A stretch of DNA of 43,391 bases from Haliea sp. (lineage in GTDB: Bacteria > Pseudomonadota > Gammaproteobacteria > Pseudomonadales > Halieaceae): contig PKDD01000126.1 in assembly GCA_002862465.1 (NCBI GenBank), positions 1 to 43,391 on the forward strand, given 5' to 3'. The notes beneath the pieces were generated by a model. That model saw nothing but the letters and a program-made list of their open reading frames with translations. It was not told the origin of the DNA and did not search any database. Positions 2,792-42,625 of this stretch are shown here, piece by piece. Both the position numbers and the translations under genes were made by a program. How positions within the stretch are numbered: position 1 is the stretch's first letter; each line of letters starts with the position of its first letter.

Positions 2792-2815
2792 AAATCAGTC
2801 AACCCTGATTGTTTT
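2792..2815. promoter_or_regulatory. predicted operator, site A of shared inverted repeat
   Basis: Arms CAGTCA (2796-2801) and TGATTG (2806-2811) are separated by ACCC and flanked by AAAAT on the left and TTTT on the right. The arms pair at five of six positions. The site lies 50 bp before the MDR start and 75 bp before the monooxygenase start. The same layout recurs at 10058, 16848, 22543 and, more weakly, 42606. The bound factor is unknown; a TetR-type repressor is the simplest guess. Confidence 0.6.
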
Positions 2816-2889
2816 AGCGCGTCTACTCTGCTACTGTTTCTTCGGTCACCATCGCCACTCAAATGTCCATTTACTGCTTAGGATTGCTC

Positions 2890-3234
2890 ATGACTATATT
2901 GATTGCTGGCACCGTTCATCTCCCTGCACTGGAGCGCGAAAATGCGCTTGCAGAAACGGCAAATTTAGTAGAGCAAACGCGCGCACAAAAGGGATGTCGC
3001 CATTATGTTTGGTCCGCAGACCCTACCTCTGTTACGCGAGTCTATGTCTATGAGAACTGGGATTCAGTAGAGGATTTAGCTGCACATCTGGCAGGTCCCT
3101 ACTATCAGAACATGCTCGCTAGCCTAGGCAAATACGGTGTAAGTGAAACTGAGGTATCAAAATTTAAAGTGGCTTTGGAGGAGCCTGTATACGATCCGGA
3201 TGGCAAGCCCCGTGCAGACTTTTTTACTGAATAA
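2890..3234 (+). CDS. ABM-domain small monooxygenase (putative quinol monooxygenase)
   Basis: From the chosen start this is a 114-residue protein with the antibiotic-biosynthesis-monooxygenase ferredoxin-like fold. It opens MTILIAGTVHLP and continues with the KGCRHYVW strand and the typical VYVYENWDS segment. Such dimeric cofactor-free enzymes oxidise quinol or polyketide-like rings; some related proteins act on other reactive intermediates. I chose ATG 2890 because AGGA lies six bases upstream and the protein then begins at the conserved strand; an ATG at 2863 lacks a ribosome site and adds a hydrophobic stub. It is the first gene of an apparent operon with the molybdopterin oxidoreductase, LLM enzyme and aldehyde dehydrogenase (gaps 46, 18 and 37 bp). 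The reaction here is not known. Confidence 0.8.
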   Translation: MTILIAGTVHLPALERENALAETANLVEQTRAQKGCRHYVWSADPTSVTRVYVYENWDSVEDLAAHLAGPYYQNMLASLGKYGVSETEVSKFKVALEEPVYDPDGKPRADFFTE

Positions 3235-3280
3235 ACATTCAGTTTCACTAAGCAGGTAACGATTATAGGATTGCAATTAG

Positions 3281-5449
3281 ATGGCGAGCAAAACTGTAAA
3301 AACATATTGTCGATTTTGTCATGCTTACTGCCCGATGGAGGCAACAGTCGAAAATAATAAACTAATAGCGCTGGTCCCCGATACCAGTAATGAAATGTAT
3401 GGCGGCTATACCTGCATCAAGGGCCGGCAAATGATAGATCAAATTGACCACCCCACTCGCCTACAGCAGTCACAAAAAAAACAGCCCGATGGTTCCTTTA
3501 AGCCCATTGGTACCGAGCTTGCAATGGATGAGATAGCTGCACAATTGCAGACCATACTGGACACCTATGGCCCGCGCAGTATCGCCAGCTACAACGGCAC
3601 TTACTCTTATCAAAATTCAGCAGCCCACGATGTAGCGAGAGCATTCCATGCGGCCATTGACTCTCCCTCATACTATACGAGTGTCACCATTGACCAACCC
3701 GCAAAGGTTGCAATTGGTCCGACTCGCATGGGGTGGTGGAACGGTGGCAGCCACATGTGGAATGATTCCGATGTTGCCATGATCATCGGCAATAATACCT
3801 TGGTATCACACTATTCAATACCCGGCGGTATTCCGGCTTTTAGCCCACACAATGCCCTGCGCGATGGCAAGAAGCGCGGCATCAAAGTCATTTGTATCGA
3901 CCCGCGCGTGACAGAAGTGGCGAGTCGCGCAGACCTACATTTGCAGGTCCGTCCGGGCCAAGATGCTGCAGTCGTAGCCGCTATTATTGCCGTAATCCTT
4001 GCGGACGAACTATATGATAAAGCGTTCTGCTTAGAACATGTTGATGGCCTGGAGCAGCTTACGGAACACACCCGAAGGTTCAGCCCGGAGGCAGTATCTG
4101 CTGCGGCCGGTATCCCGGCCGAGCAAATCGTTGCAGCCGCTAGGATGTTTGCTGCCGGTCCTCGTGGCACTGCCGTTACCGGCACAGGGCCCGAGATGGG
4201 GCCTCATCCCAATCTATTGCAACACCTTGTGCAGTCCCTAAACGCAATCTGCGGACGTCACTATCGTGAAGGCGAACGCCTGCCCAACCCCGGCGTTCTT
4301 ACACCCATGGCCCCTCGAAATGCTGAAGCTACTGGACCACAACCACAGTGGCTCACCGACGGCGTAAAGAGTCGTGTATCCGCAAATATTTGTGAGACAG
4401 TGGTGCTGTCTCCCTATGGCCCAGCCAAAGAAATGCCCACCGCTGTAATCAGTGACGAAATGCTTCTAGAGGGCGAGGGGCAAATCAAGGCCCTGATATG
4501 CGTGGGTGGCAACCCACTACTAGCTTGGCCAGATCAAGACAAGACGTATGCAGCACTGTCAGGCCTAGAACTTCTAGTCTGTATTGATATAAAAATGGCG
4601 GCGACAGCACAGATGGCGGATTATGTGTTGGCACCCAAAATGTGTTTAGAACGAGAAGATGTCACTCTGCTCACCGATATATGGCATGACAAACCTTACA
4701 GCCAATACACCCAAACCGTCGTCGAGGCCGAAGGCGATAAAATAGAAGAATGGGAATTTTTCTGGGCCATGGGCAAGCGTATGGGGCTCAACATGAGCAT
4801 GGCCAACGGACCGATAAATATGCAGGAAAAGCCGAAAAAATTCGACTTGCTTGCTAATATAACCAAAGGATCACGCGTGCCGTTGAAACAGATTTATGAC
4901 ACCCAAGGCGGAAAAGTTTTTGATGTGCCGGACGTCATCCTTGGCGCACCCGATCCGACAACGCGCGAGCGCCTGCAGCTTTTTCCGCCCGGACTGCAAC
5001 AGGAGTTGGACGTCGCGCATAACGATATGAAATCTTCGGGCACGGAAGAATACCCAATGCTGTTGATCAGTCGTCGCATGAAAAATACTTACAACTCTAC
5101 TGGACCAGAACTAAGCCTACTAAAAAGCAAGGGCACCACTAACCCAGCTTTTATGCACTCCCAAGAGCTAGCAGAACTTCAAGTCTCAGATGGCGATATT
5201 GTTGAAGTGCATTCACGCCATGGAGCCATCCCAGCTGTAGCGAAGGCCAGTGATGACATCAGGCCCGGAGTCATCTCCATGTCTCACTGTTGGGGAGGGT
5301 CACCCGAGCCAACTGCAAATGCCGATCAAAAGGTCCGCGAAATTGGCAGCAACACTAACCGACTGATCGATAACTTAGAACATGGGGAGAGATATTCTGG
5401 CATGTGTCGGCAGAGCAGTATCCCGGTGATCATTAGGAAACCATCCTGA
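3281..5449 (+). CDS. molybdopterin-dependent oxidoreductase (DMSO reductase family)
   Basis: 722 residues. The N-terminus carries a four-cysteine iron-sulfur motif, C10-x2-C13-x3-C17 and C45. It is followed by the molybdopterin oxidoreductase body, with IIGNN and ICVGGNPL cofactor-binding stretches. The C-terminal molydop-binding domain begins near residue 585 (LLISRRMKNTYNS). The family binds bis-MGD and performs two-electron redox or hydration reactions. There is no Tat signal, so it should be cytoplasmic. The region where formate dehydrogenases carry Cys or Sec (about residues 133-143) has no Cys; D138 in TIDQPAK is the most visible candidate molybdenum ligand, though this alignment was done by eye. 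No electron-transfer subunit lies next to it. Its neighbours (ABM, LLM, aldehyde dehydrogenase) suggest oxidation or hydroxylation of an organic substrate rather than respiration. Confidence 0.9.
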   Translation: MASKTVKTYCRFCHAYCPMEATVENNKLIALVPDTSNEMYGGYTCIKGRQMIDQIDHPTRLQQSQKKQPDGSFKPIGTELAMDEIAAQLQTILDTYGPRSIASYNGTYSYQNSAAHDVARAFHAAIDSPSYYTSVTIDQPAKVAIGPTRMGWWNGGSHMWNDSDVAMIIGNNTLVSHYSIPGGIPAFSPHNALRDGKKRGIKVICIDPRVTEVASRADLHLQVRPGQDAAVVAAIIAVILADELYDKAFCLEHVDGLEQLTEHTRRFSPEAVSAAAGIPAEQIVAAARMFAAGPRGTAVTGTGPEMGPHPNLLQHLVQSLNAICGRHYREGERLPNPGVLTPMAPRNAEATGPQPQWLTDGVKSRVSANICETVVLSPYGPAKEMPTAVISDEMLLEGEGQIKALICVGGNPLLAWPDQDKTYAALSGLELLVCIDIKMAATAQMADYVLAPKMCLEREDVTLLTDIWHDKPYSQYTQTVVEAEGDKIEEWEFFWAMGKRMGLNMSMANGPINMQEKPKKFDLLANITKGSRVPLKQIYDTQGGKVFDVPDVILGAPDPTTRERLQLFPPGLQQELDVAHNDMKSSGTEEYPMLLISRRMKNTYNSTGPELSLLKSKGTTNPAFMHSQELAELQVSDGDIVEVHSRHGAIPAVAKASDDIRPGVISMSHCWGGSPEPTANADQKVREIGSNTNRLIDNLEHGERYSGMCRQSSIPVIIRKPS

Positions 5450-5467
5450 GTTTTAGGGGCACTACAC

Positions 5468-6457
5468 ATGAGCCAGGACAAGCCTTTTCGATTTTCACTG
5501 CAAAGTTTCAACACGGATTCAGCGGCTAGCTGGCGCAACCTCATCGCGAAAACTGAAAACCTTGGTTATTCGACCTTTTTCCTAGCAGACCACTTCCTCA
5601 GCACAGGGCCCGCTCTAGACTCCACCTATCATCCTCCCCAAATGCTAGCTGCAGTGCCCGCAATCGCAATGGCGCTGGAACAAACGAGCACGCTGCGTGT
5701 AGGTTGCCGTGTTTTCTGCAACGATTATCACCACCCAATTATACTGGCCAAAGAAGCCGCAACGATGGACTACCTGTCTGAAGGACGACTGGAATTTGGC
5801 ATCGGCGCCGGCTGGATCAAAAATGAATATGAGGCCGTTAACCTGCCTTTTGATGATTTTCCGCAGCGCTTTGAACGCTTCGCTGAATTCGTCTCTGCTT
5901 ATAAAGCGTTCATGTCTGGTGAACCGCTTGAGATCGCAGGCAACTTCATTAAGTGGTCAGGCTTTTCTGGCACACCGATACCCTCACAAGCGCCCTATCC
6001 GCCATTAATGATCGGAGGTGGCAGCAAAAAAATCCTAACTTTTGCTGGAGAGGAAGCCGACATCGTTAGCCTGAATTTTAATAACCGCTCTGGAATGCTT
6101 GGCCCTGATGGCATGACATCAGGGCTTGCGGCTGCCACAGCCCAGAAAATCGACTGGATAAAAAAGGGCGCTGGTGCTCGTTTTAACGAAATAGAGCTGG
6201 AAATCGGTGCCTACAACACTATTATTACCGATCACCAACAGGCAACAGCAGAAGCCATCGGCGGTGCTTTAGGAATGTCTAGTGGCGATATTCTCAGTCA
6301 TCCGCACTGCCTCATTGGCAGTGTCGACTTCATCTGCGAAGAGCTAGAGCGCCGCCGGGAAACCTACGGCATTTCTTATATTGCCGTACTTGATGACGGA
6401 ACAAACAACATGGTGGAGACGTTTGCGCCAGTTGTTGCGCGTCTCGCTGGCAAGTAA
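5468..6457 (+). CDS. LLM-class flavin-dependent oxidoreductase
   Basis: 329 residues of the luciferase-like TIM-barrel superfamily. Typical stretches are NLGYSTFFLADHF near the N-terminus, EGRLEFGIGAGWIKNEYEAVNL in two parts around residues 105-127, and PPLMIGGGSKKIL near residue 180. It most resembles the group often annotated as F420-dependent (MSMEG_2516-like). Most gammaproteobacteria do not make F420 and nothing here shows its synthesis, so FMNH2 as cofactor is equally possible. It lies 18 bp after the molybdopterin gene in the same operon. The family performs monooxygenation (including Baeyer-Villiger-like steps) or hydride transfer; the substrate cannot be read from the sequence. Confidence 0.85.
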   Translation: MSQDKPFRFSLQSFNTDSAASWRNLIAKTENLGYSTFFLADHFLSTGPALDSTYHPPQMLAAVPAIAMALEQTSTLRVGCRVFCNDYHHPIILAKEAATMDYLSEGRLEFGIGAGWIKNEYEAVNLPFDDFPQRFERFAEFVSAYKAFMSGEPLEIAGNFIKWSGFSGTPIPSQAPYPPLMIGGGSKKILTFAGEEADIVSLNFNNRSGMLGPDGMTSGLAAATAQKIDWIKKGAGARFNEIELEIGAYNTIITDHQQATAEAIGGALGMSSGDILSHPHCLIGSVDFICEELERRRETYGISYIAVLDDGTNNMVETFAPVVARLAGK

Positions 6458-6494
6458 ACTGCAGCAATACTTAATTCAGGAGTAAACCGTTCCA

Positions 6495-7961: not shown

Positions 7962-8079
7962 AATCAGTGCTGCCAGGCAAGATCGTCAATGCGGCATTGC
8001 ACCATAATCCATCGTTACTGAACGCGCCGTCCGGATTAAGTTAGACCTATTTTATTATTCACTCGAGGCCAGAAAATCA

Positions 8080-8778
8080 ATGTCCAGTAAAAAGGAAGTC
8101 ACAGCAAGGGACAGAGTTGTAGAGCAGCCCGGTGAAGACATAAGCTGGCAGGCTCAAAAGAGCGCCATGACCCGAGAGCGCATACTTAAAGCCTCTATTA
8201 ATTGCTTTATAGAACTGGGCTACACCAATGTCACCACAGCGAAAGTCGCAAGCTTAGCGACGGTTTCACGCGGCGCGATGTTGCACCACTTCCCGTCGAA
8301 GACAGAACTCATTGGCGCCGCAGTCGAGTATCTTCACGATAAGCTATTAGAGGATTACTCGTATCGAGTCGCTAGCATCCCGTCTTCCCTTAAAGGGAAA
8401 AAGCGTCGCCGAGCGGGTATTGACGCATATTGGGACCACCTCACCGGCGACTTGTTTGTGGTTTACCACGAATTGTGCGTCGCTAGTCGGACGGACTCAG
8501 AACTAAAGTTCATTCTAGAAAACTCACAGCTGGCATTCGAAAAACACGTACGTGATTCAAATGCAACGTTGTTTTCCGAGTGGAACGACCGCGGCGATCG
8601 CTTCCTGCTAGCGATGGATGTCGCCAAGTGCATGATGGAGGGCATGGCCGCTGGACAGCTAATGACGAACCGGGAGGAACGCGTACAGCAACTCCTAAAT
8701 TATCTAGCCGACCGCCTAGAAGAAATTTTTGAAGAGGGGGAAGGCTCGGCTATTGGTCGGCATTCCGATAACAAATAG
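8080..8778 (+). CDS. TetR/AcrR-family transcriptional regulator
   Basis: 232 residues. The N-terminal helix-turn-helix runs from about residue 28 to 75 (TRERILKASINCFIELGY, then TAKVASLATVSRGAMLHHF and PSKTELI), the classic TetR_N layout with the HHF anchor. The C-terminal part is a variable ligand-binding domain. It follows the aldehyde dehydrogenase by 118 bp and faces the convergent acyl-CoA dehydrogenase. Its own upstream region lacks the CAGTCA-N4-TGATTG repeat found in the divergent gaps. It is still the nearest candidate for binding that repeat, since TetR repressors usually bind such inverted repeats and respond to a CoA ester or substrate. That link is inference. Confidence 0.9.
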   Translation: MSSKKEVTARDRVVEQPGEDISWQAQKSAMTRERILKASINCFIELGYTNVTTAKVASLATVSRGAMLHHFPSKTELIGAAVEYLHDKLLEDYSYRVASIPSSLKGKKRRRAGIDAYWDHLTGDLFVVYHELCVASRTDSELKFILENSQLAFEKHVRDSNATLFSEWNDRGDRFLLAMDVAKCMMEGMAAGQLMTNREERVQQLLNYLADRLEEIFEEGEGSAIGRHSDNK

Positions 8779-8818
8779 ACTAGCTCAATCGTATTAGCAA
8801 AGGAACTTTTCGCACCCG

Positions 8819-9964
8819 TTACGCTGCGCGCCCAGCCGCTAAATCCGCAAATTTTTGTAAATACCAAGACTCATCTCCATAAAGCTTGGTCAATATCATC
8901 AAGCGTTTGTAGTGGTGGCCTATGCTGAGTTCATCCGTCATGCCAATACCACCGTGTAACTGCACAGCCTCCTGAGCCACAAGCCTGCCCGCCTCGCATA
9001 CTTTTACCTTCAAAGCCGCACACGCGCTAGCCGAGTCAGGTTCGTTTTGATCCAACTGGATAGCCGCATTAAACAGCAGTGAGCGGGTCTCTTCGACCTT
9101 CATATACATTTCAGCCATGCGGTGCTGCAACACCTGAAACTTACTAATGGGCTGTCCAAACTGCTGACGCGTCTTGGTATATTCGACAGTAGCATCGAGC
9201 AGCGCCTGCATTGCTCCCAGTGCTTCCCCCCCCAAAGCCACAATAGTCCTATCGATAACCGCCAACATCAGGGCATGACCCTGTCCGACTTCACCGATTA
9301 CACGATCAGCACCGACCACTACACTGTCGAGATGCACATGCGCACCGCGGCTTCCGTCTACAGCGCAAAAATCGTCCGCGCCAACGCCTGAAGAATTGAC
9401 ATCAACAATAAAAAGGGTAATGCCTGTCACGTCACCGGCGGCACCACTGGTACGTGCCGATACCACTAAGTGATCAGCGCAATGAGCATTCAAGACCGTA
9501 GCTTTCATACCGTTTAAGACATAACCTCCGTCCTGCTGCAGCGCGGTCGTACGCACTTGCGCTAGATCGTAACCACTGCTCTGTTCCGCAAAGGCAAATG
9601 CCCACTGCGCACTGCCATTAATAATGGCGGGAATATACTGTTGCCGTTGCTGTTCACTACCACCCCAGTGTACAAAGCCACCGCAGGTAACCACCGTAGT
9701 AAGTAACGGCTCGCGAACCAGACCTTTTCCCAGCGCTTCCATGATAACTATTATGTCAGTAGCCCCGCCCGCAAAGCCTCCGAGTTCCTCGCTAAACGGT
9801 ATAGACAGCCACCCCAATTGCGCAAACTGTTGCCACGCAGCATCATCAAAACCCAGCTCTGTTTTGATGACAGTTCGATGACGCTCGACGCTGCAATGCT
9901 GACGGATGTACTTCTCGACGCTATCGCGCAGTAATATCTGTTCTTCGCTAAGAGAAAAATCCAC
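8819..9964 (-). CDS. acyl-CoA dehydrogenase, probable non-catalytic-type partner subunit
   Basis: 381 residues with the ACAD N-terminal, middle and C-terminal domains: LSEEQILLRDSVEKY at the start, RTSG near 171, and LHGGIGMTDELSIGHHYKR near the end. In the helix where many ACADs without the medium-chain Glu carry their catalytic Glu (LER in isovaleryl-CoA dehydrogenase), this protein reads VIDRT, giving D238. The C-terminus also lacks a GTSEIQR-like segment. This pattern resembles the degenerate subunit of heterotetrameric ACADs such as FadE28 (ChsE1). If so it needs a partner; the gene at 24248 has the Glu and a related operator upstream of its operon. It is divergent from the nitroreductase operon across operator site D. 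Confidence 0.85.
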   Translation of the reverse strand: MDFSLSEEQILLRDSVEKYIRQHCSVERHRTVIKTELGFDDAAWQQFAQLGWLSIPFSEELGGFAGGATDIIVIMEALGKGLVREPLLTTVVTCGGFVHWGGSEQQRQQYIPAIINGSAQWAFAFAEQSSGYDLAQVRTTALQQDGGYVLNGMKATVLNAHCADHLVVSARTSGAAGDVTGITLFIVDVNSSGVGADDFCAVDGSRGAHVHLDSVVVGADRVIGEVGQGHALMLAVIDRTIVALGGEALGAMQALLDATVEYTKTRQQFGQPISKFQVLQHRMAEMYMKVEETRSLLFNAAIQLDQNEPDSASACAALKVKVCEAGRLVAQEAVQLHGGIGMTDELSIGHHYKRLMILTKLYGDESWYLQKFADLAAGRAA

Positions 9965-10057
9965 GCTGAGACCTGTCTGTGGTGTTACGAATATACCGTC
10001 TGTGGCAAGGGTTATGACGCTGCCCTCAAGTCGCTATGCTAGCAAAGCGCTCAGCGC

Positions 10058-10084
10058 GAAACAATCAGTCCCTACTGTTTTATT
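10058..10084. promoter_or_regulatory. predicted operator, site D of shared inverted repeat
   Basis: On the + strand CAATCA (10062-10067) and CTACTG (10072-10077) flank a 4-bp spacer, with GAAA on the left and TTTTATT on the right. Read on the minus strand this is CAGTAG-GGAC-TGATTG with an ACAGT/TGATTGTTT core as at 2792 and 22543. It lies 94 bp before the ACAD start and 69 bp before the nitroreductase start. One arm is less well kept than in sites A and B. Confidence 0.5.
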
Positions 10085-10152
10085 CTTAGTCAAATTGACC
10101 TAGACTCGCTCAAAGAGAATCCTACTCCACCATTATCTCTGCAGGAATACGC

Positions 10153-10809: not shown

Positions 10810-10892
10810 CTCAAAACCGTCAATGTGGGCACCGGTTAATCTGAGCATCAAAGCTCGTTAGGCAATGCGTGATACCCGCATGACGCTCTATG

Positions 10893-10910: not shown

Positions 10911-10947
10911 TGACTATCAGAATGACCATTTTACGAGGAGACTTAGT

Positions 10948-11667: not shown

Positions 11668-11670
11668 TAA

Positions 11671-12560: not shown

Positions 12561-12591
12561 CTATACTGGGCAAAAGGGTAGATAGACAATA

Positions 12592-15363: not shown

Positions 15364-16794
15364 TCAATTTCCTTGACGCCATGAACCATGAAAACCTGCA
15401 GGTACGCTATGAGACAGGTGGACTTTAGCCAATGGTCCATCGGACAACTTGAGCGCGTTGAAAATATACAGGCTGCTCGTTCTGGTTTCGAAACTCGTCA
15501 CAACTGACAGCAGATAACCCTCACCTTCAGCCGCACCATCGTGTGCAGGCACGAAGATTGCCTCCGAAGTCATCGCTTGTCCACAGGAGTAGCGATCTAC
15601 GGTGTCTGCCTGATGATCAAAGTGACCAATGGTATTATAAAAGTTACCGCTATCGTCCAGCGTACTCTTTAAGTCACCATCAGGCGAGGTATACCATCCG
15701 TGTCGATACGCCTTGCCGGCATAACGGGGATCACACTGTGGAAACTCTGATTCGAAGTCATCAAGGCGTGCAAAGGTGGCACGCGGATACTGCGCGTTCA
15801 TGTCTAGAGTCCATCGTGTTAGATGCGGCTCGGACTTGCCGGTAGATTGTCCGTCTGGCGTAGAAAATAAAGGCGCCGCCTCAAACTGACTACAGTCAAC
15901 GGTGATAACACCATCTTTGTCATAACCGTTCATAAAATGGAAAGCAAAGCTTAGATCCATTTCGACCCAGCGAATATCCTCAGTTTTACCGCCATGGCGC
16001 GGTAAAATACCAAGATGGACGCCTTTTTCAGGCTCCCATGCAAACGGAGGTCCTCCTTCCATCGCCCTCTCAAGGCTGCCTGTAATCGGCATCACTGGGA
16101 TAATGATATAATTTTCAGTGACCATGAAGTCGTGAACCATCGCTGAATATGGTGTGGGCACGAGAATACTCTCCGTCAAGATTCCCTCTGCATTTACTTT
16201 ATGCACCATCACGTCCGCCGAGAAAGGGCCCGTCGCCATATAAGCGAAAAATACCATTTCACCCGTGTCGGGATCGATTTTAGGGTGGGCAGTCATCGCG
16301 GTGTTTAGCTTGCCTCTAAAATTCCAGCTACCGAGTGACTCAAGCGTATCAGGGTCTAGCTCGTAAGGCGGATGACCCTCTTCCATCACGAGCAATCGCC
16401 CTCCATGCCAAACGGTAGCGGTATTCGCAGTGCCATCTTTATCGGTGAACACAAAGTCGCTGTAGTCCGGATCACAGTCAAAAGGATTCATCGGGTTTAT
16501 CAATGTTCTGGCTTCCCTGTCTTCGTGCTTCCACTTTGCGGTTCGTACCCAGCGATTGTTGTAATCCACCTTGCCGCCTTTGATGTGGAAAGCATGCACC
16601 ATGCCATCTCCCATAAATAGATGGTAATCGCCCCGAGGCTTGAAACGTTGATTGGGGCCCGCGCGATAGAGGGATCCACATAAGTCGTCGGGGATTTCAC
16701 CCTCCACTACGAGGTCATGCGCATCGCACTCCATCTGGATCGGCCCATAAGGGAATTTCAAAAACGGGTTAGTTGCAGGCATCGGAGCGGCCAT
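15364..16794 (-). CDS. carotenoid oxygenase family protein, paralogue 2
   Basis: 476 residues from ATG 16794, chosen because AGGA lies five bases upstream; an in-frame ATG at 16806 overlaps that ribosome site. The iron ligands are H170 (TAHPK), H221 (MVHDF), H286 (AFHFMNG) and H469 (GFHGSW), in almost the same positions as in the downstream paralogue. Blocks such as GDGMVHAF, the YSAMVHDF region and RAMEG-PPFAWEPE are shared, so this is a tandem duplication that has diverged a lot; I estimate about half the residues identical. The EEGHPPYEL stretch again lacks a lignostilbene-type Lys. It is the first gene after operator site C and is divergent from the TonB receptor. Two copies suggest different substrates, or a hetero-oligomer. 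Confidence 0.92.
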   Translation of the reverse strand: MAAPMPATNPFLKFPYGPIQMECDAHDLVVEGEIPDDLCGSLYRAGPNQRFKPRGDYHLFMGDGMVHAFHIKGGKVDYNNRWVRTAKWKHEDREARTLINPMNPFDCDPDYSDFVFTDKDGTANTATVWHGGRLLVMEEGHPPYELDPDTLESLGSWNFRGKLNTAMTAHPKIDPDTGEMVFFAYMATGPFSADVMVHKVNAEGILTESILVPTPYSAMVHDFMVTENYIIIPVMPITGSLERAMEGGPPFAWEPEKGVHLGILPRHGGKTEDIRWVEMDLSFAFHFMNGYDKDGVITVDCSQFEAAPLFSTPDGQSTGKSEPHLTRWTLDMNAQYPRATFARLDDFESEFPQCDPRYAGKAYRHGWYTSPDGDLKSTLDDSGNFYNTIGHFDHQADTVDRYSCGQAMTSEAIFVPAHDGAAEGEGYLLSVVTSFETRTSSLYIFNALKLSDGPLAKVHLSHSVPAGFHGSWRQGN

Positions 16795-16847
16795 TAGAAT
16801 CCTCATTTACAGATTTGGGGTTAAGAATGCTCACCGTAGCCCCAAAA

Positions 16848-16877
16848 TTAAAGACAGTCAATATTGTTTGTTTTTAA
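16848..16877. promoter_or_regulatory. predicted operator, site C of shared inverted repeat
   Basis: The left arm TTAAAGACAGTCA (16848-16860) and right arm TGTTTGTTTTTAA (16865-16877) flank the spacer ATAT. Ten of thirteen positions are complementary. It lies 54 bp before the carotenoid oxygenase start and 125 bp before the TonB receptor start, in a 207-bp divergent gap. The spacing and core match sites A and B. Confidence 0.55.
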
Positions 16878-17001
16878 TCTGACACTTTGCTAGTCTCATC
16901 ATTCAACTGATAACGCCTCCTCTCCATGGCTCCTCGCTCTGTCGGAACTGCGCATTAACGCATCTGGAGGGTGACTAAAAATAAGACTTTACTGGTGACT
17001 T

Positions 17002-21793: not shown

Positions 21794-22426
21794 CTACGCT
21801 TCTGACGGATGAACACTGGCAGCAACGCTGGGACGCTCGAGAACACGCTTGAACCAAGCCTGCAGATTCGGTAATGCTTCAGGGATGCCTTGACCAATTA
21901 GGGCACCAAAATCTGCAAAGGCGAACAGTTGTATATCAGCCAAAGTGAATCGGTCGCCGCACACGAACGTCTTGTCCGCCATTTGTGGCTCCAGCCAAGC
22001 CCAAGAATCCTGCACCGTAGCTTTTAAATCATCTGCCGCGTGGGGAATGACGCGATATCGGTCTTTAAATAGCCCTATTGCTTCTGCACTGCGAAACGCC
22101 AGCGTCATGGGTTCGAGAATGCGCGTATCAAATCGCCGATTCCACATCCGCGTTTCTGCCCGCTCTTCTGGCGTGGCACCGATCAATGAGGGGCCGCCAG
22201 TCACTTCATCGAGGTATCCGCATATCACCGTCACTTCCGCTATCACACTACCGTCATCGAGTTGCAAGCAAGGCGACTGGGCAGACGGGTTGAGTTTCCT
22301 GAAAGCATCGCCAAGGTTTTCACCAGCCATGATGTCCACCTCCTGAACCGGCAAATCTATGCCGCGTTCAGCGATAAACATTGCAACAACACGGGGATTG
22401 GGACCCACAGACATATAAAGTTTCAT
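21794..22426 (-). CDS. glutathione S-transferase family protein
   Basis: About 210 residues from ATG 22426, which has GAGGAG six bases upstream; an upstream in-frame ATG at 22474 is not supported. The N-terminal thioredoxin-like domain starts MKLYMSVGPNPRVV and contains NPSAQSPCLQLDDG and VTVICGYLDE. The helical C-terminal domain has DRFTLADIQLFAF, the standard GST N-capping region. The residue expected to activate glutathione is S7 or a neighbour near the N-terminus. Roles could be detoxification of electrophiles, or an isomerase or lyase step. The gene is divergent from the SDR-Rieske operon across operator site B, so it is likely induced with it. Confidence 0.9.
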   Translation of the reverse strand: MKLYMSVGPNPRVVAMFIAERGIDLPVQEVDIMAGENLGDAFRKLNPSAQSPCLQLDDGSVIAEVTVICGYLDEVTGGPSLIGATPEERAETRMWNRRFDTRILEPMTLAFRSAEAIGLFKDRYRVIPHAADDLKATVQDSWAWLEPQMADKTFVCGDRFTLADIQLFAFADFGALIGQGIPEALPNLQAWFKRVLERPSVAASVHPSEA

Positions 22427-22542
22427 TTTTTCTCCTCGGGATATAGCGATTCTTTCGACTGCCAGAGGATTCATACTGGGCCGAAAAATAACTACATTGA
22501 CAGCGTCTTCTGCCTAGTTTGAACACACATTATCGGATAAAA

Positions 22543-22570
22543 AATAAACAGTCAAATCTGATTGTTTATT
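22543..22570. promoter_or_regulatory. predicted operator, site B of shared inverted repeat (best copy)
   Basis: The left arm AATAAACAGTCA (22543-22554) and right arm TGATTGTTTATT (22559-22570) flank the spacer AATC. Eleven of twelve positions are complementary, making this the clearest copy in the window. It lies 117 bp before the GST start and 126 bp before the SDR start at 22696. Confidence 0.65.
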
Positions 22571-22695
22571 ACAAATAGGTTTGATAACGTGCCCTATAAA
22601 GGCGCGTTGCCGACTGGGGACGTTGCCCTCTGAAAGGCATCTCCCCACGCTTCTACGAATAAACAAAAACACTACAATGATCTCAGGAGACACAC

Positions 22696-23457: not shown

Positions 23458-23458
23458 A

Positions 23459-26768: not shown

Positions 26769-27296
26769 ATGACAGAAGAAATGGGTACAACTCCTCATCC
26801 AAATCAAATCGCAGACAGAATGGCAATATACGATGTATTAAACCTACATAGTCGCGGCCTAGATCGACGAGACAAATACGCAGTTCAATGCGCATACTGG
26901 TCCAATGCGGAAGTAGACTATGGCAGCTTCAAGGGCAGCGCACACCAATTTGCGGTACTTGTTGTGCGCGCATTAGACGAACAATACGAACTGACGCGGC
27001 ATAGCCTAAGTAATACACTAATCCAATTTTCAGCCAATACAGCCCTCTGTGAGTCAACAGTTGAAGCAGGTCACCTGTTACCGGGTGCAGCAGAGGAACT
27101 GTTATTCTATGGTCGCTATCTGGACAAACTGGAAAAGCGGGGAATGCAATGGAAAATCGCTCACCGACAAGTAGTGATGGACTGGAGCAAGCGCTTGCCC
27201 GTGCTGGATGAACGCGATGGCGCAGCATTTTTTGACATCGCGAAAAGTGCGCATCTCAATGATGACCCGCTTTATTCCTTTCTCAATTCTAAATAA
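26769..27296 (+). CDS. SnoaL-like protein, possibly an oxygenase beta-like subunit
   Basis: 175 residues. The N-terminus (NQIADRMAIYDVLNLHSRGLDRRD) and FWKIAH-like C-terminal strand (MQWKIAHRQVVMDWS) match the SnoaL_4/NTF2 group that also contains ring-hydroxylating dioxygenase beta subunits. D-x-R-D, here LDRRDK, is a common landmark near residue 37. It lies 153 bp after the Rieske gene, a gap that could hold its own promoter. It may stabilise the oxygenase as a beta subunit or act as a separate dehydratase or isomerase. The sequence does not decide between these. Confidence 0.8.
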   Translation: MTEEMGTTPHPNQIADRMAIYDVLNLHSRGLDRRDKYAVQCAYWSNAEVDYGSFKGSAHQFAVLVVRALDEQYELTRHSLSNTLIQFSANTALCESTVEAGHLLPGAAEELLFYGRYLDKLEKRGMQWKIAHRQVVMDWSKRLPVLDERDGAAFFDIAKSAHLNDDPLYSFLNSK

Positions 27297-34997: not shown

Positions 34998-35026
34998 AGC
35001 ACGTTCCTCGAATAGAATTGTATGTG

Positions 35027-36091: not shown

Positions 36092-36143
36092 AGTCTCGTT
36101 AGGCCACCGTAACTAAAACTCAGCGAGTCTACCGGAAAAGCTC

Positions 36144-37304: not shown

Positions 37305-37315
37305 AATGGGGCTCC

Positions 37316-38020
37316 TCAGTAAGTCCTGACCATGGCAGTCAGGTTGCGGGTATATTTAAGCTTCTCTTCTTCGGGCTGCTGAAGAAAAAGGGCTCTGTAA
37401 AACATAGTGGACAGCAGCTCTGCGAACTGCTCTACCGATAGCTGTGCGGCACGTAACGTTTTGCTCTCATTGATGAAGTACTCGCGTATTAACCCTTCTC
37501 CAATGCCGGCAAGAGAGTACACCACCATCAGCGACTGGTTATTACTAAACTTTACGTTGGGGAACAGCTTCGGCATCAGTTCTACCAGCCACATTAATTG
37601 ATTGCGATAGTTCGCTCGCAACATGCTGGAAAATGTTGCATCCTCGTCTGCCAGTTGCAGCAAAGACCGCATAACCCCAGGGCGTTTCGCGTACGTGCGA
37701 ACTATAACCAGATTGTGCGCATATATCCGCGCATACCAGTCTCCCTTGGGCACATGCTTTTCCGTTTGCGCTGGGTCATTACTAGCGACCGAAAAATCCG
37801 TCAACACTTCCAACGTAAGAGACTTCAGATCTTTAAAATAATGATAAAACAAGCCCTGAGCGACTCCAGCTTCGCCGGTGACATCGGCAATTCGCATTTT
37901 GTGATAGCCCTCGCGCTCGAGCACAACCAGCGCGGCCTCTTTCAAACCTGCGCGGGCGCGCGCTCCGCGTGCGCTGAGAACACCCGTACTTCTTGGGGCT
38001 TTAGCAATAACTTCTGACAT
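37316..38020 (-). CDS. TetR/AcrR-family regulator of the igr-like cluster
   Basis: 234 residues. The N-terminal DNA-binding domain covers about residues 22-72 (RAGLKEAALVVLEREGYHKMRI in two parts, then GVAQGLFYHYFKDLKSL), the standard TetR layout. The C-terminal domain is ligand-binding, with no recognisable sub-family. It is the first gene of the leftward operon and is divergent from the ACAD-MaoC-Ltp2 operon. A 22-bp near-perfect palindrome lies at 38036-38057 in the 73-bp gap and could let one dimer pair control both directions, including itself. The ligand is probably a CoA ester of the pathway; that is inference from how KstR-type regulators work. Confidence 0.92.
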   Translation of the reverse strand: MSEVIAKAPRSTGVLSARGARARAGLKEAALVVLEREGYHKMRIADVTGEAGVAQGLFYHYFKDLKSLTLEVLTDFSVASNDPAQTEKHVPKGDWYARIYAHNLVIVRTYAKRPGVMRSLLQLADEDATFSSMLRANYRNQLMWLVELMPKLFPNVKFSNNQSLMVVYSLAGIGEGLIREYFINESKTLRAAQLSVEQFAELLSTMFYRALFLQQPEEEKLKYTRNLTAMVRTY

Positions 38021-38035
38021 AGCGTGACAAAATAG

Positions 38036-38057
38036 TTGAATTTGAATTCAAAATCAA
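38036..38057. promoter_or_regulatory. predicted TetR operator in the igr-like divergent gap
   Basis: The arms TTGAATTTGAA and TTCAAAATCAA abut at the centre; ten of eleven positions are complementary, and the inner TTTGAATTCAAA is a perfect 12-bp palindrome. It starts 16 bp before the TetR start and ends 36 bp before ATG 38094. Its sequence differs from the CAGTCA-N4-TGATTG sites, pointing to a second regulator. Confidence 0.65.
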
Positions 38058-38093
38058 TATCATATGGCACATTAACGGAAAGGAGCCTTGTCT

Positions 38094-39266
38094 ATGTTCG
38101 TCGATTACACAGATCATCAAAAAGAGTTGCGCAGAGAATTTCGCGCTTATTTTTCCAATCTGATTAAACCCGAGCACCGCGAAGAGCTGCGCAACGCGGA
38201 AAGCGGTGAGGTTTATAAGACCCTCATCCGACAGCAAGGCTTAGACGGGATGCTCGCGGTTGGCTGGCCAGAGCAGTACGGCGGGCGCGGACTGACCGAA
38301 AGTGAGCAGCTTATCCGCTATGAAGAAGCTTTATTAGCCGGAGCACCCACACCCTTTGTCACCCTCAACACAGTTGGCCCATCGATCATTAGCAAGGGTA
38401 CTGAAGAGCAAAAGAAGCGGTTCCTCCCAGGCATAGCAGGCGGTGAGTTGCACTTCGCCATCGGCTATACGGAGCCTGCCGCCGGTACCGATCTTGCCGC
38501 CCTAACAACCTCAGCCGTTAAACAAGGCGACCATTACTTGGTCAATGGAAACAAGGTCTATACGAGTGGAGCTGAAGGTGCAGATTATGTGTGGCTCGCG
38601 GCCCGAACCAATCCTGACGTTGCGAAACACAAAGGCATTTCGATATTGGTGCTGGACACCAAAGATCCGGGATTTTCTTTTGGACCAATCCACACCATGG
38701 GTGGTGTCCGCACTAATGTTACGTATTACAGCGATGTCAAAGTCCCCGCGGATATGATTATCGGCGAAGAAAACGCTGGCTGGCGCTTGATAACGGAGCA
38801 ACTCAATCATGAGCGAGTTGGTCTCGCGGCATGGGGCATACAGGGCTGGAAAATTTTTCGGGCGGCGCTCGAATGGGCGCGTAACACTCAAAACGACGAT
38901 GGGCAGCGCGTGATTGATGACCCACTAGCCCAGCGCAACTTGGCAGAGGTTTATGCGCATTTAGAGGCTATGCGTGTCATGAACGCACGCATGTCATGGC
39001 AACTAGATCAGGCAGAGATGGACCCTGTTTTTCCTTCTGCAATCAAAGTCTACTCTACCGAAATCATGCTGGAAATTTGCCGCATACTCATGGACGTGGT
39101 CGGCCCCCATGCACTCATTGCAGCTGGCAGCGAGGGTGCCATGCTGCACGGGGATTTGGAGCATGAGTATCGTCGAGCGACTATTAGCACTTTCGGCGGT
39201 GGCGTGGTGGAAGTGTTACGTGGACTGGTCGCTACCCACGGACTTGGTATGCCATCGCACCGCTAA
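38094..39266 (+). CDS. acyl-CoA dehydrogenase, FadE29/ChsE2-like catalytic subunit
   Basis: 390 residues from ATG 38094, with AGGAG at 38081-38085; an in-frame TTG at 38088 is too close to that site. The domain order is normal: AIGYTEPAAGTDLAA near 122, NKVYTSGA near 153, and STFGGGVVEVLRGLVA at the C-terminus. The probable catalytic base is E240 in LNHERVGLA, close in number to the Glu I recall for FadE29 (Glu241). ChsE1-ChsE2 introduces the double bond in the three-carbon side chain of steroid CoA esters. The gene starts the operon that continues with the hydratase and aldolase genes. The substrate here may be another ring-linked propanoyl-CoA. Confidence 0.9.
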   Translation: MFVDYTDHQKELRREFRAYFSNLIKPEHREELRNAESGEVYKTLIRQQGLDGMLAVGWPEQYGGRGLTESEQLIRYEEALLAGAPTPFVTLNTVGPSIISKGTEEQKKRFLPGIAGGELHFAIGYTEPAAGTDLAALTTSAVKQGDHYLVNGNKVYTSGAEGADYVWLAARTNPDVAKHKGISILVLDTKDPGFSFGPIHTMGGVRTNVTYYSDVKVPADMIIGEENAGWRLITEQLNHERVGLAAWGIQGWKIFRAALEWARNTQNDDGQRVIDDPLAQRNLAEVYAHLEAMRVMNARMSWQLDQAEMDPVFPSAIKVYSTEIMLEICRILMDVVGPHALIAAGSEGAMLHGDLEHEYRRATISTFGGGVVEVLRGLVATHGLGMPSHR

Positions 39267-39299
39267 AATAATTGATAATTGCAATAGGAACTGTGTCAA

Positions 39300-40274
39300 A
39301 TGACAACGGATGAGCAAGAAGCCATTGAGTCAGAAATTTACGCCTTCGTAGGCCAACAAGTCTATCCACCCACTCCCGCAGCGGATGACGTAAACGATGC
39401 GATGATTCGTCAGTGGGCAGAAATCATGGGCGACACCAATCCGGCATATATCGACAAAGACTGGGCCGCCAGCAGTATTCGGGAACGGACTATTTCTCCC
39501 CCTGCTATGATGTATGTATGGGGTCAGGAGGGATTTCAAGTCACCAAGGGTCGCGCACCCAATGCAATGTCAAACCTTGTCAGCACTTTTGACAGGTATG
39601 GCTATACAGGCGTGCTCGGCACGAATGTCAAACAAGAATATTTCAAAGAGGTCAGCCCTGGTGACAACGTCACTATTGAGATGATTATCGACAATATCTC
39701 TGAGCGCAAGGCGACTGGACGGGGTACCGGGTATTTCTTCGAAACGTTGTCAACCTTTACTGACCAACACGGTGAAAAAATTGGCACTCAGCGCTTTAAA
39801 GTGTTGAAATTTATTCCACAAGAACAGCCCGCCGCTGCCGCAACCGAAGACAAACTTGATGTGCCTACTCGGATCGCATCCCCTCGCGGACACGACAATA
39901 AGTGGTGGTGGGAGGCTTGCGATGATGGCAAGGTGCTTATACAGCGCTGTAAGAGTTGCGGAGCACTCCGCCACCCTCCTCGACCCATGTGCGGCGAATG
40001 TAATTCCATGGAATGGGATTCCATAGAATCCACGTTGGACGGTGAAGTGCTCAGCCATACCGAAATCCATCACCCCAAGATTCCCGGCTATCAGTATCCT
40101 CTGGTATGTGCTGTCATCAAGTTGGCAGAGGGGACTAACCTAGTGGCAAATATTGTTGGGTGTTCCCCATCGGAAGTGCAAATCGGCATGAAAGTCAAAG
40201 GCGTGCTGGAGCAAATCGATGAAAAAACTATGCTGCCACAATTTTATCCGGCGCAATCAGGACTCAATCCATGA
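39300..40274 (+). CDS. MaoC-DUF35 fusion, ChsH2-like hydratase/aldolase subunit
   Basis: 324 residues in two domains. Residues 1-170 are a MaoC-type hotdog; its motif region reads GDTNPAYID, with Tyr where the catalytic His would stand, so this half is probably not catalytic. Residues about 190-318 are a DUF35 domain: a rubredoxin-like zinc ribbon C217, C220, C231, C234 followed by an OB fold (DGEVLSHTEIHHPKI). This is the domain order of mycobacterial ChsH2, whose MaoC half pairs with ChsH1 and whose DUF35 half binds Ltp2. The stop overlaps the next start by 4 bp (ATGA), consistent with tight coupling. By analogy, one complex could pass the enoyl-CoA from hydration to cleavage. Confidence 0.9.
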   Translation: MTTDEQEAIESEIYAFVGQQVYPPTPAADDVNDAMIRQWAEIMGDTNPAYIDKDWAASSIRERTISPPAMMYVWGQEGFQVTKGRAPNAMSNLVSTFDRYGYTGVLGTNVKQEYFKEVSPGDNVTIEMIIDNISERKATGRGTGYFFETLSTFTDQHGEKIGTQRFKVLKFIPQEQPAAAATEDKLDVPTRIASPRGHDNKWWWEACDDGKVLIQRCKSCGALRHPPRPMCGECNSMEWDSIESTLDGEVLSHTEIHHPKIPGYQYPLVCAVIKLAEGTNLVANIVGCSPSEVQIGMKVKGVLEQIDEKTMLPQFYPAQSGLNP

Positions 40275-40702
40275 ATGAACACAAGACACTGACTCGCGCC
40301 GAGGTATCCGTCGGCGACAAATTACCCGCCGCGGATATCGATATCACAACGGGACTGGTGGTTTGTGGCGCTTTGGCCACGCGTGATTTTGAACCCGTAC
40401 ACCACAGTAAGGCCGCTGCACAGGCCGTTGGTCTGCCCGACGTATTTATGAATATCTTGACCAGTCAAGGCCTGATGACTCGGTTCGCTACCGACTGGAG
40501 CGGGCCGGAAGCTGTCGTCAAGTCGGTGGATCTGCGCTTGGGTGCCCCCAACGTACCCGGTATGGTAATGACCGTTAGTGGCAAAGTCACAGCGCTTGAC
40601 AAAGACAGTGGGCTGGTGGATCTCGCCGTTACCGGGGAAAACAACATATGGGGAATGCACATGCAGGGCACCGTTCAATTGACATTGCCCAAGGAGTCCT
40701 AA
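40271..40702 (+). CDS. MaoC-family hydratase subunit, ChsH1-like
   Basis: 143 residues, a single hotdog domain. RDFEPVHHS gives D39 and H44, the Asp-x4-His hydratase dyad, near the positions I recall for ChsH1 (Asp29, His34). The central helix follows (VGLPDVFMNILTSQGL). Its partner is the upstream MaoC-DUF35 protein, which lacks the dyad; the coding regions overlap by 4 bp. Together they should hydrate the alpha,beta-double bond of a bulky CoA ester in the cytoplasm, forming the tertiary or secondary alcohol cleaved by the next enzyme. It is followed after 3 bp by the Ltp2-like gene. Confidence 0.9.
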   Translation: MNEHKTLTRAEVSVGDKLPAADIDITTGLVVCGALATRDFEPVHHSKAAAQAVGLPDVFMNILTSQGLMTRFATDWSGPEAVVKSVDLRLGAPNVPGMVMTVSGKVTALDKDSGLVDLAVTGENNIWGMHMQGTVQLTLPKES

Positions 40703-40705
40703 GCC

Positions 40706-41881
40706 GTGATCGCTAACGTGAAAAATAAAGCAGTAATCGTCGGAATCGGCAATACGACATTCAGTAAGGATTCTGGTGTTTCCGAACTCTCACTCGCAGT
40801 GCAAGCCGTTAAAGCTGCCATTGATGACGCTGGCCTTAAACCCAGCGACATTGATGGTATGGCAACGTTCACTATGGACACCAACGACGAGATTGAGGTG
40901 GCAAGAGCGCTCGGTGTTGGCGAGCTCACCTTTTACGGCCGTTCCCACTATGGCGGTGGCGCAGCGACTAGCTGCCTGCATCAGGCAACCATGGCAATAG
41001 CAACAGGAATGGCGGAAACGGTGGTGGTGTATCGCGCATTGAATGGTCGTAGTGGCCACCGCTTCTCTGGCGGTGTCGCCGGCGATATCACCACAGCTGA
41101 TGCTATTCATTGGGGCTGGTACATGCCTTATGGTCTGCTGACGCCCGCCAGTTGGGTCGCGATGTTCACTCAGCGCTGGATGCATAACACCGGCGTCACC
41201 AAGGATGCTCTTTTTGAAGTGGCACATTCAACCCGCGTCTACGGTGCTAACAACCCGGCAGCTTTCTTCCACGGCAGACATTTCGACCGCGCCGAGTATG
41301 ACGCGGCACGAATGATTGCGGATCCTCTGCAGTTATTCGACTGCTGCCAAGAAAGTGATGGCGGCTCAGCCGTTATCGTAACGACGCCAGAGCGGGCTCG
41401 TGATCTAAAACAGCCCGGCGTAAGCGTTCTAGGGGTGGCTCAATGTGCGGCCGACAACCAGGAGCAAATGACTTCATTTTATCGCGAAGAATTCGCAGGA
41501 ATCCCCGAGATGGAAACTGCGGCAAGAAACGTCTACGCCATGAGTGGCCTTTGTGTAGACGATATAGATGCTGCCGTGATTTATGACGCCTTCTCCCCAA
41601 TCGTACTTTGGCAGCTAGAAGCATGGGGTTTTTGCGGCTATGGCGAGTCCGGTGATTTCGTGACAGACGGCGCGCTCAGAACAAACGGCCGACTGCCTAC
41701 CAACACCCATGGCGGTCAATTGAGTGAAGCCTATATCCATGGCGTTAATGGCATCGTTGAAGCTACTCGGCTAGTGCGCGGCACCTCTGCGAACCAGCCA
41801 ACAAAGGCAGTCAATCACGCGTTAGTAACGTCCGGCGTGGGCATTCCAACCGGCGGGGCGATTCTAGGGAAAATGAACTGA
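40706..41881 (+). CDS. thiolase-fold aldolase, Ltp2-like
   Basis: 391 residues, GTG start. It is a thiolase-superfamily/lipid-transfer protein of the Ltp type, with VIVGIGNTTFSK at the start and the DAAVIYDAFSP and THGGQLSEAYIHGVNG regions near the end. Where true thiolases have GHPxGATG, this has AYIHGVNG, with Y343; Y293 is in IYDAFS. Published work on Ltp2 bound to the ChsH2 DUF35 domain describes such tyrosines in a repurposed active site that does retro-aldol cleavage, not thiolysis (residue numbers not checked here). It should release propionyl-CoA and a ring ketone. Its position after ChsH2- and ChsH1-like genes is the same as in the actinobacterial igr operon. Confidence 0.88.
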   Translation: MIANVKNKAVIVGIGNTTFSKDSGVSELSLAVQAVKAAIDDAGLKPSDIDGMATFTMDTNDEIEVARALGVGELTFYGRSHYGGGAATSCLHQATMAIATGMAETVVVYRALNGRSGHRFSGGVAGDITTADAIHWGWYMPYGLLTPASWVAMFTQRWMHNTGVTKDALFEVAHSTRVYGANNPAAFFHGRHFDRAEYDAARMIADPLQLFDCCQESDGGSAVIVTTPERARDLKQPGVSVLGVAQCAADNQEQMTSFYREEFAGIPEMETAARNVYAMSGLCVDDIDAAVIYDAFSPIVLWQLEAWGFCGYGESGDFVTDGALRTNGRLPTNTHGGQLSEAYIHGVNGIVEATRLVRGTSANQPTKAVNHALVTSGVGIPTGGAILGKMN

Positions 41882-41944
41882 GACGTTTTTTGAAGGCCGA
41901 AGCAGCAGGCTAGGCGAGCCGATCGAAAACACCTCACCGTCATA

Positions 41945-41969
41945 GGCCCGCGTACGAACCTCACGGGCT
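41945..41969. terminator. weak hairpin after the Ltp2-like gene
   Basis: GGCCCG (41945-41950) and CGGGCT (41964-41969) pair as a 6-bp stem with one G-T pair and a 13-base loop. ATTTATAG follows, not a strong T-run. It lies between converging genes and may help end transcription of the rightward operon. Confidence 0.3.
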
Positions 41970-42042
41970 ATTTATAGTAACAGTGTGGGTGCCGACGCAA
42001 CCCGCATAAAAAAATAAGGCAAAGCCCCGGCCGGACGCAAAT

Positions 42043-42058
42043 CCTGCTAGCTGGCAGG
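42043..42058. terminator. hairpin between converging Ltp2-like and MaoC genes
   Basis: CCTGC and GCAGG form a perfect 5-bp stem around TAGCTG. It starts 7 bp after the stop of the leftward MaoC gene. On that strand the following bases are ATTTGCG, so it is at best a weak terminator. Confidence 0.3.
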
Positions 42059-42064
42059 TCAGCA

Positions 42065-42532
42065 CTACATATAAATTATAATCATCTCGTAGACTAAAAC
42101 AGGACGTTCATCTTGTCCAACAACATGAATATGCTGTTCCATTTCGACTTTAGTGCCCTTAGCTGTCGCGGTCACGCCCTTGACTCTGCTGCGACAGTGA
42201 ACTGCACTACCCACAGGAACCGGGCCGATAAAGCGCAACTTGTCCGAGCCATAATTCAAAATATTGTTATAGCCAGTCACTTCGTAACTGCTCGCGCCAG
42301 CCATTTTCGGCAGCAGAACAAGCGTTAAGAATCCGTGCGCTATCGTCATGCCAAACGGGCTATCAGTTTTTGCTTTCTCAGGGTCAGTATGAATCCAGTA
42401 AGTATCACCCGTCAGCGTCGCGAACTGATCAACCAATGATTGGGTAATCTGCACCTGCCCGCTCCAGGCGCCAAACTCGTCAGACACCACCTCCTGCAAC
42501 GCTTCAATATCGTTATAGGCGTAATGTTTCAT
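42065..42532 (-). CDS. MaoC-family (R)-specific enoyl-CoA hydratase-like protein
   Basis: 155 residues, a single hotdog with the complete hydratase motif: TGDTYWIHTDPEKA carries D43 and H48, followed by SPFGMTIAHGFLTL. This is the PhaJ/NodN-like layout and, unlike the two coupled pairs in the window, it should work as a homodimer. GAGGAGAG lies upstream of ATG 42532. It would hydrate enoyl-CoA to (R)-3-hydroxyacyl-CoA. It is divergent from a thiolase across a 286-bp gap with operator site E, so the two may serve the same beta-oxidation branch. Confidence 0.92.
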   Translation of the reverse strand: MKHYAYNDIEALQEVVSDEFGAWSGQVQITQSLVDQFATLTGDTYWIHTDPEKAKTDSPFGMTIAHGFLTLVLLPKMAGASSYEVTGYNNILNYGSDKLRFIGPVPVGSAVHCRSRVKGVTATAKGTKVEMEQHIHVVGQDERPVLVYEMIIIYM

Positions 42533-42605
42533 ATTCGGCTCTCTCCTCGTTAATCAAATAGTCACTTCACTTATCGTTCGTGTCTATATTTTACATGTTA
42601 GGCAG

Positions 42606-42625
42606 AAAAACAATCAATCCGACTG
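42606..42625. promoter_or_regulatory. weaker copy of the shared inverted repeat, site E
   Basis: AAAAACAATCA (42606-42616) is followed by ATC and CGACTG (42620-42625). On the minus strand it reads CAGTCG-GAT-TGATTGTTTTT, the same core but with a spacer one base shorter and one arm mismatch. It lies 74 bp before the MaoC start. It could be a weak or chance match. Confidence 0.35.

Follow-up and report, generated by a model that had tools for sequence, protein, structure and literature searches.

In Pseudomonas putida F1, catabolic operons (cym and cmt) with ring dioxygenase and outer-membrane transport genes are repressed by CymR, a TetR-type protein whose cumate operator appears as ACAAACAGAC-N6-GTCTGTTTGT in the cited part of one source (PMC5224996) and as AACAAACAGACAATCTGGTCTGTTTGTA in that of another (PMC1654148). 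Other systems pair a TetR protein with catabolic genes and inverted repeats: AtuR and RdmA repress clusters for the degradation of acyclic terpenes and diffusible signal factor (cited passages of PMC9973270), and the TetR-like PA3973 of Pseudomonas aeruginosa controls an acyl-CoA dehydrogenase gene, with palindromes around its own predicted -10 (cited passages of PMC9736018). Here we describe a 22-bp dyad, AAACARTCA-N4-TGAYTGTTT, found at four of the seven divergent gene gaps of a 43,391-nucleotide stretch of Haliea sp. (the window: contig PKDD01000126.1 of assembly GCA_002862465.1, or C22 among the 182 contigs of a 3.3 Mb genome). Judged from sequence comparison, there is a strong likelihood that this dyad is the operator of a repressor encoded in the window, TetR-A, and that its arms double as -35 elements, so that a bound dimer would shut one or both of the promoters beside it.

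CymR has the closest known operator that was found. Compared with AAACAGTC-N6-GACTGTTT here, it has the same arm layout and spacing, and one base differs per core half-site; the CymR arms AAACAGAC-N6-GTCTGTTT do not occur in the present motif despite the same spacing. The proteins align over the DNA-binding domain only, and TetR-A is therefore not classed as CymR: residues 24-100 match a provisional CymR sequence at 36% identity along 77 residues (the best listed plasmid match to that sequence was 38%), and residues 101-232 gave no BLASTP alignment to it, leaving no similarity over the whole protein. The CymR gene cluster also differs from the cluster here, and -35 elements inside the operator are a feature proposed here that the cited parts of the CymR sources do not mention. 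By analogy, the system would work like a CymR-type catabolic repressor. The AtuR and RdmA operators (AGCAAGCGCTTGG and CCAAGCGCTTGCT, as cited) are unlike the dyad, and an AtuR identity was rejected because its 13-bp inverted repeat, the first of these two, differs from the consensus; the cited PA3973 motif, SAAGRNMTGAACG, is unlike it as well. The author of an earlier note on this DNA knew of no published regulator with the motif, which holds within the open-licence papers of PubMed Central, the CymR operator being similar: motif strings returned papers that look unrelated by title, TetR paired with Halieaceae or with lignostilbene dioxygenase returned nothing, Halioglobus is named in none of the matches listed (8 of 5,077), and a further listing had no title of relevance.

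The dyad and its background

The core of the dyad, CAGTCA-N4-TGATTG, occurs at 2796-2811, 16855-16870 and 22549-22564 on the plus strand and at 10062-10077 on the minus strand. All four copies lie outside called open reading frames and between divergent gene pairs, as the earlier note had said of its copies (the seven divergent gaps were counted from the open reading frame list). That note had the repeat marking five of the seven; four of its sites stand, 1-7 bases from where it had put them. The fifth, a weaker copy at 42606 that was to bring a thiolase unit into the regulon (the last gene's label is the earlier reader's), was rejected. No position in 42581-42660 scores above 0 with the site matrix, the corresponding gap of the related genome G004 has no site scoring 13 or more, and in four relatives aligned by BLAST (L212-L215) the first arm is altered in all four, three have lost the second, and the remaining one has a changed form of it. 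Chance does fit this copy.

For the other four copies, chance repeats in AT-rich intergenic DNA are barely credible as an explanation, and what can be said for them is the lack of enrichment of the bare core in this stretch. At three or fewer mismatches the 16-bp core has 48 matches there against 41.3 expected, a number reached by 20 of 100 shuffles; genome-wide at no more than one mismatch there are 12+11 matches against 5+6 in the reversed control, mostly without AT-rich flanks. As a genome marker, the bare core was rejected for being near background. The motif stands above chance because the AT-rich arms are included: the 22-bp form occurs at five places in the whole genome at up to two mismatches, four of them in the window, with none in the reversed control. 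At up to three mismatches there are nine places against five in the control, which makes the weaker 22-bp matches unsafe.

Site matrices single out the same copies. A first matrix, made from 29 seed sites in this genome and its relatives and excluding the -10 positions, scores exactly these four window sites at 20 or more; when 100 first-order Markov copies of the window were scored, not one had a position that high, against four positions in the window itself. Since this matrix includes the window sites, a second was built from 39 distinct sites of loci L146-L203 only; the same four rank first (20.2-27.8), the next position scores 10.8 and the best in the reversed window 7.5. The two matrices are not wholly independent, as the L146-L203 sites had been found with the first.

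Two findings that the earlier note held would speak against the repeat, equal frequency in coding DNA and lack of conservation at the same promoters, went the other way. Loci around TetR-A relatives were taken from the best 80 of 335 matches, with flanks of about 10 kb and a site cut-off of at least 20. The 22 close loci among them contain 41 sites (reversed control 0), at least one in each of 21 loci, and none falls in tblastn-supported coding DNA, though 65% of the sequence is coding. All 18 genomes of the genus have matches at up to two mismatches (2-9 places each; control 0-1), and a mismatch-free copy of the site at 22546, set in similar flanks, is present in all but one of the 17 other members (16 of 17), the exception being G009, a genome 89% complete, where none was found. 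With the reversed and simulated controls empty at the 22-bp thresholds used, and the sites kept at the same promoters in relatives, chance falls away.

Operator arms as candidate -35 elements

At each window site the TTGTTT arm would also serve as the -35 of a promoter directed toward one of the flanking genes; at three of the four sites the other arm, TTGACT, would do the same for a divergent promoter (Table 1). The counts come from a close set of 182 orientations of 91 distinct sites, which takes in loci from G022 and a small number of further genomes (L036-L078) and omits duplicate rows as well as those whose flanks were incomplete. TANNNT follows at exactly 17 bp in 68 of 77 TTGTTT arms and in 0 of 55 CTGTTT arms, with TGnTA also present at 66 of the 77; conversely, every arm facing such a -10 begins with TTG (69/69). 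The opposite arm has TANNNT 17 bp on in 49 of 62 cases where it reads TTGACT, and both promoters are present at 45 of the 91 sites: 21 of 22 CurA/ABM sites, 16 of 19 sites of the GST/SDR/ThuA type (glutathione S-transferase, short-chain dehydrogenase/reductase and ThuA-domain genes) and 8 of 10 RPE65/TonB sites. The 16 sites of the 8819 class have only the TTG-arm promoter, toward the acyl-CoA dehydrogenase, and a few sites beside the genes at 26769, 27447, 7 and 5468/8080 have neither. The asymmetry of the motif thus looks like a promoter code. At 10059 the promoter-like arm faces the acyl-CoA dehydrogenase (8819-9964, minus strand) and not the nitroreductase, which corrects the earlier assignment of that unit. 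The earlier note had missed both the arms doubling as -35 elements and the further sites outside the window.

With one dyad spanning two candidate -35 elements, repression by occlusion is predicted. A TetR-A dimer on the 22-bp dyad would cover the -35 element or elements and block RNA polymerase at one or both promoters, which is the simplest mechanism, and a compound of the pathway would release it from the DNA. The arms might instead be nothing but back-to-back -35 elements of bidirectional promoters that no regulator binds, since both form -35-like hexamers at the right spacing. Conservation spans 22 bp and so runs past the hexamers, the dyad persists near tetR in distant loci where the promoter geometry is mostly missing, and the sites track TetR-A across genomes; promoters without a bound regulator are accordingly a highly improbable account.

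A third possibility is that TetR-A binds the dyad but works there as a class II activator. The centre of the operator falls near -40.5, counted from the predicted start, most of the -10 elements are of the extended TGnTA form, as at some activated promoters, and some TetR proteins do activate, for example LuxR of Vibrio alginolyticus in the cited part of one report (PMC9736018). Activation nevertheless seems unlikely. In each of the 69 orientations noted above, the arm that has a -10 at 17 bp begins with TTG, as a working -35 would require, while the remaining 113 orientations have CTG in 88 and TTG in 19. Many relatives also have a half-site array just downstream of the TATAAT-like -10 of tetR-A, a repressor's place; this placement suits repression and not activation, and tetR-A, which lies in the run beginning at 2863, is probably autorepressed. 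A zero-spacer form (for example AATCAGTCATGATTGTTT) precedes tetR-A in 11 of the 22 close loci. Finally, most of the TetR proteins studied repress, according to the cited part of a further source (PMC3511530).

Table 1. Coordinates of predicted operators, candidate promoter elements, the proposed regulator gene and further sites (window positions unless a contig is named).
Feature	Position	Strand	Context
Operator (predicted) AATCAGTCAACCCTGATTGTTT	2793..2814	+	Gap between CurA-like reductase (1726-2742, -) and run of ABM-domain, molybdopterin, luciferase-like monooxygenase (LLM), succinate-semialdehyde dehydrogenase (SSADH) and tetR-A genes (2863 onward, +); kept in relatives
Operator (predicted) AAACAGTAGGGACTGATTGTTT	10059..10080	-	Gap between acyl-CoA dehydrogenase (8819-9964, -) and BluB-like nitroreductase (10153, +); kept in relatives
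Operator (predicted) AGACAGTCAATATTGTTTGTTT	16852..16873	+	Gap between RPE65-type dioxygenase (15364-16806, -) and TonB-dependent receptor (17002, +); kept in relatives
Best operator (predicted) AAACAGTCAAATCTGATTGTTT	22546..22567	+	Gap between GST (21794-22474, -) and SDR/ThuA/acyl-CoA dehydrogenase/Rieske run (22696 onward, +)
Candidate -35 TTGTTT	2809..2814	+	17 bp to extended -10 TACTGT (2832-2837)
Candidate divergent -35 TTGACT	2797..2802	-	17 bp to -10 TATCGT (2774-2779)
Candidate -35 TTGTTT	10059..10064	-	17 bp to extended -10 TAGCAT (10036-10041), toward acyl-CoA dehydrogenase
Candidate -35 TTGTTT	16868..16873	+	17 bp to extended -10 TAGTCT (16891-16896)
Candidate divergent -35 TTGACT	16856..16861	-	17 bp to -10 TACGGT (16833-16838)
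Candidate -35 TTGTTT	22562..22567	+	17 bp to extended -10 TAACGT (22585-22590)
Candidate divergent -35 TTGACT	22550..22555	-	17 bp to -10 TAATGT (22527-22532)
tetR-A	8080..8778	+	TetR/AcrR-type regulator, 232 amino acids; TetR_N by Pfam, TetR fold, co-occurrence with sites
Degenerate half-site array remnant	8031..8060	+	Before tetR-A; weak in the window's own clade
Further own-genome site	C30:24871		Gap between P450 and ThuA-domain gene
Further own-genome site	C20:14747		Counterpart of G004:1123216, adjoining SDR-like gene
Possible zero-spacer site	C20:230		Matrix score 16.4; kept as possible

TetR-A and other candidate readers

On the comparisons that follow, the regulator of the sites is very probably TetR-A. 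Its N-terminal helix-turn-helix matches TetR_N (PF00440, E 4.6e-12, 46 bits against a cut-off of 24), and its structure model (predicted local distance difference test 83.5) consists of helices only, in an all-helical two-domain fold. The best Protein Data Bank matches to the model are TetR-type regulators such as EthR2, Rv0078 and QacR; the likeness to EthR2 and Rv0078 of Mycobacterium tuberculosis (Foldseek E 1.2e-5, template-modelling score ~0.6, ~20% identity) is one of the fold of the model only. A KstR identity was rejected (22.3 bits with the NCBIfam KstR model against a cut-off of 280). The earlier note had named the TetR at 8080 as the nearest candidate, a choice borne out by co-occurrence, by neighbourhood and by the half-site array at its own promoter in relatives.

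Within the genus, TetR-A was found in 15 of 18 members; in G002 and G008 the contig expected to carry it ends before its place, and in G010 the one contig examined is 4.5 kb long. A wider sample of the order covered 390 genomes. All 10 genomes with TetR-A at 62% identity or more have at least two sites at no more than one mismatch, against 2 of the other 380 (nominal Fisher p = 3e-18, uncorrected for relatedness); the 62% threshold excludes 12 of the 22 genomes in which TetR-A has a match at E<=1e-40. Among the sampled members of genus g22, four carry the regulator together with sites, and two (G128 and G202) lack both. The two exceptions among the 380 are G026 and G371, with two sites each, and G371 has a 36% TetR-A relative between its sites. 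Altogether 17 genomes have a site but no TetR-A at 62% or more, fifteen of them with a single site, and single sites are near background because the reversed control also matches 11 of the 390 genomes. Ten stretches from eight of the 17 were screened with four TetR queries: a TetR-A relative adjoins the sites in G371 and in G270 (40%), a weaker one does so in G213, and none was found in the screened stretches of G026, G156, G178, G326 and G112.

Another protein could read the motif: either the TetR encoded at 37316-38020 (TetR-37316), present in all 18 genus members, or TetR-B, which in G015 (L070, 6632-7309) and G013 (L077) is transcribed divergently from a P450-like gene, with a copy of the operator in the gap. 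Both were rejected on their distribution across genomes, and a different reader is very unlikely. TetR-37316 was not found (E<=1e-40) in G090 and G290, each of which has two sites, and G128 and G202, both without sites, carry it at 70-72%; its own gap carries another palindrome. TetR-B was found in 5 of 18 genus members (only four at 54% or more) and not in the window's genome. It may be an operator-sharing TetR in a few species only. The palindrome beside TetR-37316, TTTGAATTCAAA, is perfect, occupies 38041-38052 in the gap between that gene and the one at 38088, has no other match in the window at up to one mismatch and is perhaps that TetR's own operator. An orthologue of TetR-37316 in G180 (C1:1898982-1899647) is reported with one in-frame TGA.

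Several observations weigh against TetR-A as an occluding repressor of these sites. Class II activators also use the position near -40.5, and the array before the window's own tetR-A is degenerate. The TTG-arm promoter is present at only 2 of 14 sites without a window-gene neighbour, and distant loci show the geometry weakly (6 of 23 TTGTTT arms); occlusion is therefore argued for the four window promoters and not for the whole subfamily. Because the counts run over orthologues, the independent evidence from geometry amounts to four promoter regions. Absences of TetR-A in the order sample are uncertain, since at most seven candidate proteins were scored per genome. Neither the order search nor the four TetR queries on its stretches brought up a TetR-A relative in G026, a genome with two sites. 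Three f9/g15 genomes with relatives of 50-51% have no site at up to one mismatch (one of them, G031, has a site at up to two mismatches, ~18 kb from tetR and 0.9 kb before a ThuA gene), and 19 of 50 distant loci have no site of 20 or more in their flanks.

The regulon and its reach

The genes around the sites are catabolic: a CurA-like reductase, an ABM-domain protein, molybdopterin and LLM oxidoreductases, a succinate-semialdehyde-type dehydrogenase, acyl-CoA dehydrogenases, two RPE65-type dioxygenases, a TonB receptor, SDRs, a GST, a ThuA-domain protein and a Rieske oxygenase. The regulon would comprise the CurA-like reductase, molybdopterin/LLM/SSADH, acyl-CoA dehydrogenase, RPE65-type dioxygenase, TonB receptor and SDR/ThuA/Rieske units, together with the sites on C20 and C30, and may serve a catabolic pathway whose substrate could perhaps be aromatic or isoprenoid. 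A single regulon joining five units had been proposed; co-occurrence and neighbourhood support the single regulon, and the unit at 42606 is not a member. We judge the regulon to be real, its regulator well supported and the promoter-operator design informative. It offers a searchable operator for a TetR subfamily that seems not to have been characterised, through which the regulon of a marine bacterial catabolic pathway could be delimited; the substrate of the SDR and ThuA pathway could be found through what releases the repressor; and arms doubling as -35 elements are a clean, testable case of an operator and a promoter on the same bases.

The sites extend well beyond the genus. Among the best 80 of 335 matches, the closest named relatives of TetR-A belong to Haliea/Halioglobus (Halieaceae). 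Eight loci of 50-56% identity have eight sites (four loci with at least one) and 50 loci of 40-47% identity have 53 (31 loci with at least one), both with a reversed control of 0. In 32 of the 80 loci a site (at least 15) or a zero-spacer form, a pattern without a control of its own, lies upstream of tetR at a distance of no more than 350 bp. Of the 50 distant loci, 20 encode a relative of the SDR that comes after the best window site (mean identity 57%), and 10 encode one of the ThuA-domain protein (mean 52%); ThuA (E<=1e-50) occurs in 23 of the 390 genomes, 18 of them among the 22 with TetR-A at E<=1e-40. The recurrence of the SDR and ThuA-domain unit with the regulator across families suggests one old pathway. 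It is fairly likely that one operator code is shared throughout this TetR subfamily, whose range runs from Halieaceae to Microbulbifer, Woeseiaceae and Steroidobacteraceae, across proteins with no more than 40-47% identity, and that tuning of the half-sites in Halieaceae has produced two different -35 hexamers back to back, TTGACT and TTGTTT, the asymmetry being a record of the promoters and not of protein binding, with one dimer switching both divergent partners.

Outside the window, perfect core matches at C15:1952, C33:8922 and C67:2097 were dropped (matrix score 13.1 or below 8), and the matches at C13:35251 (14.5) and C48:17397 (14.8) are candidates left as unproven. The start of C20 holds the apparent missing 5' part of the window's first gene, together with a zero-spacer-like site; C20 thus probably joins C22 and the cluster continues past the window. 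A further RPE65-type dioxygenase on C20 adjoins a zero-spacer-like site. Dehydrogenase E1 genes (pyruvate dehydrogenase-like) recur in or beside operator units at L168, a distant locus, and at L076 and L064 in Halioglobus relatives. Some public records are themselves odd: three metagenome-assembled genomes titled Klebsiella pneumoniae (L150, L165 and L194) carry TetR-A relatives of 42-52%, and their titles are probably wrong, and at the contig start of L080 / L124 the first bases resemble untrimmed adapter, which we take to be the Nextera transposase adapter.

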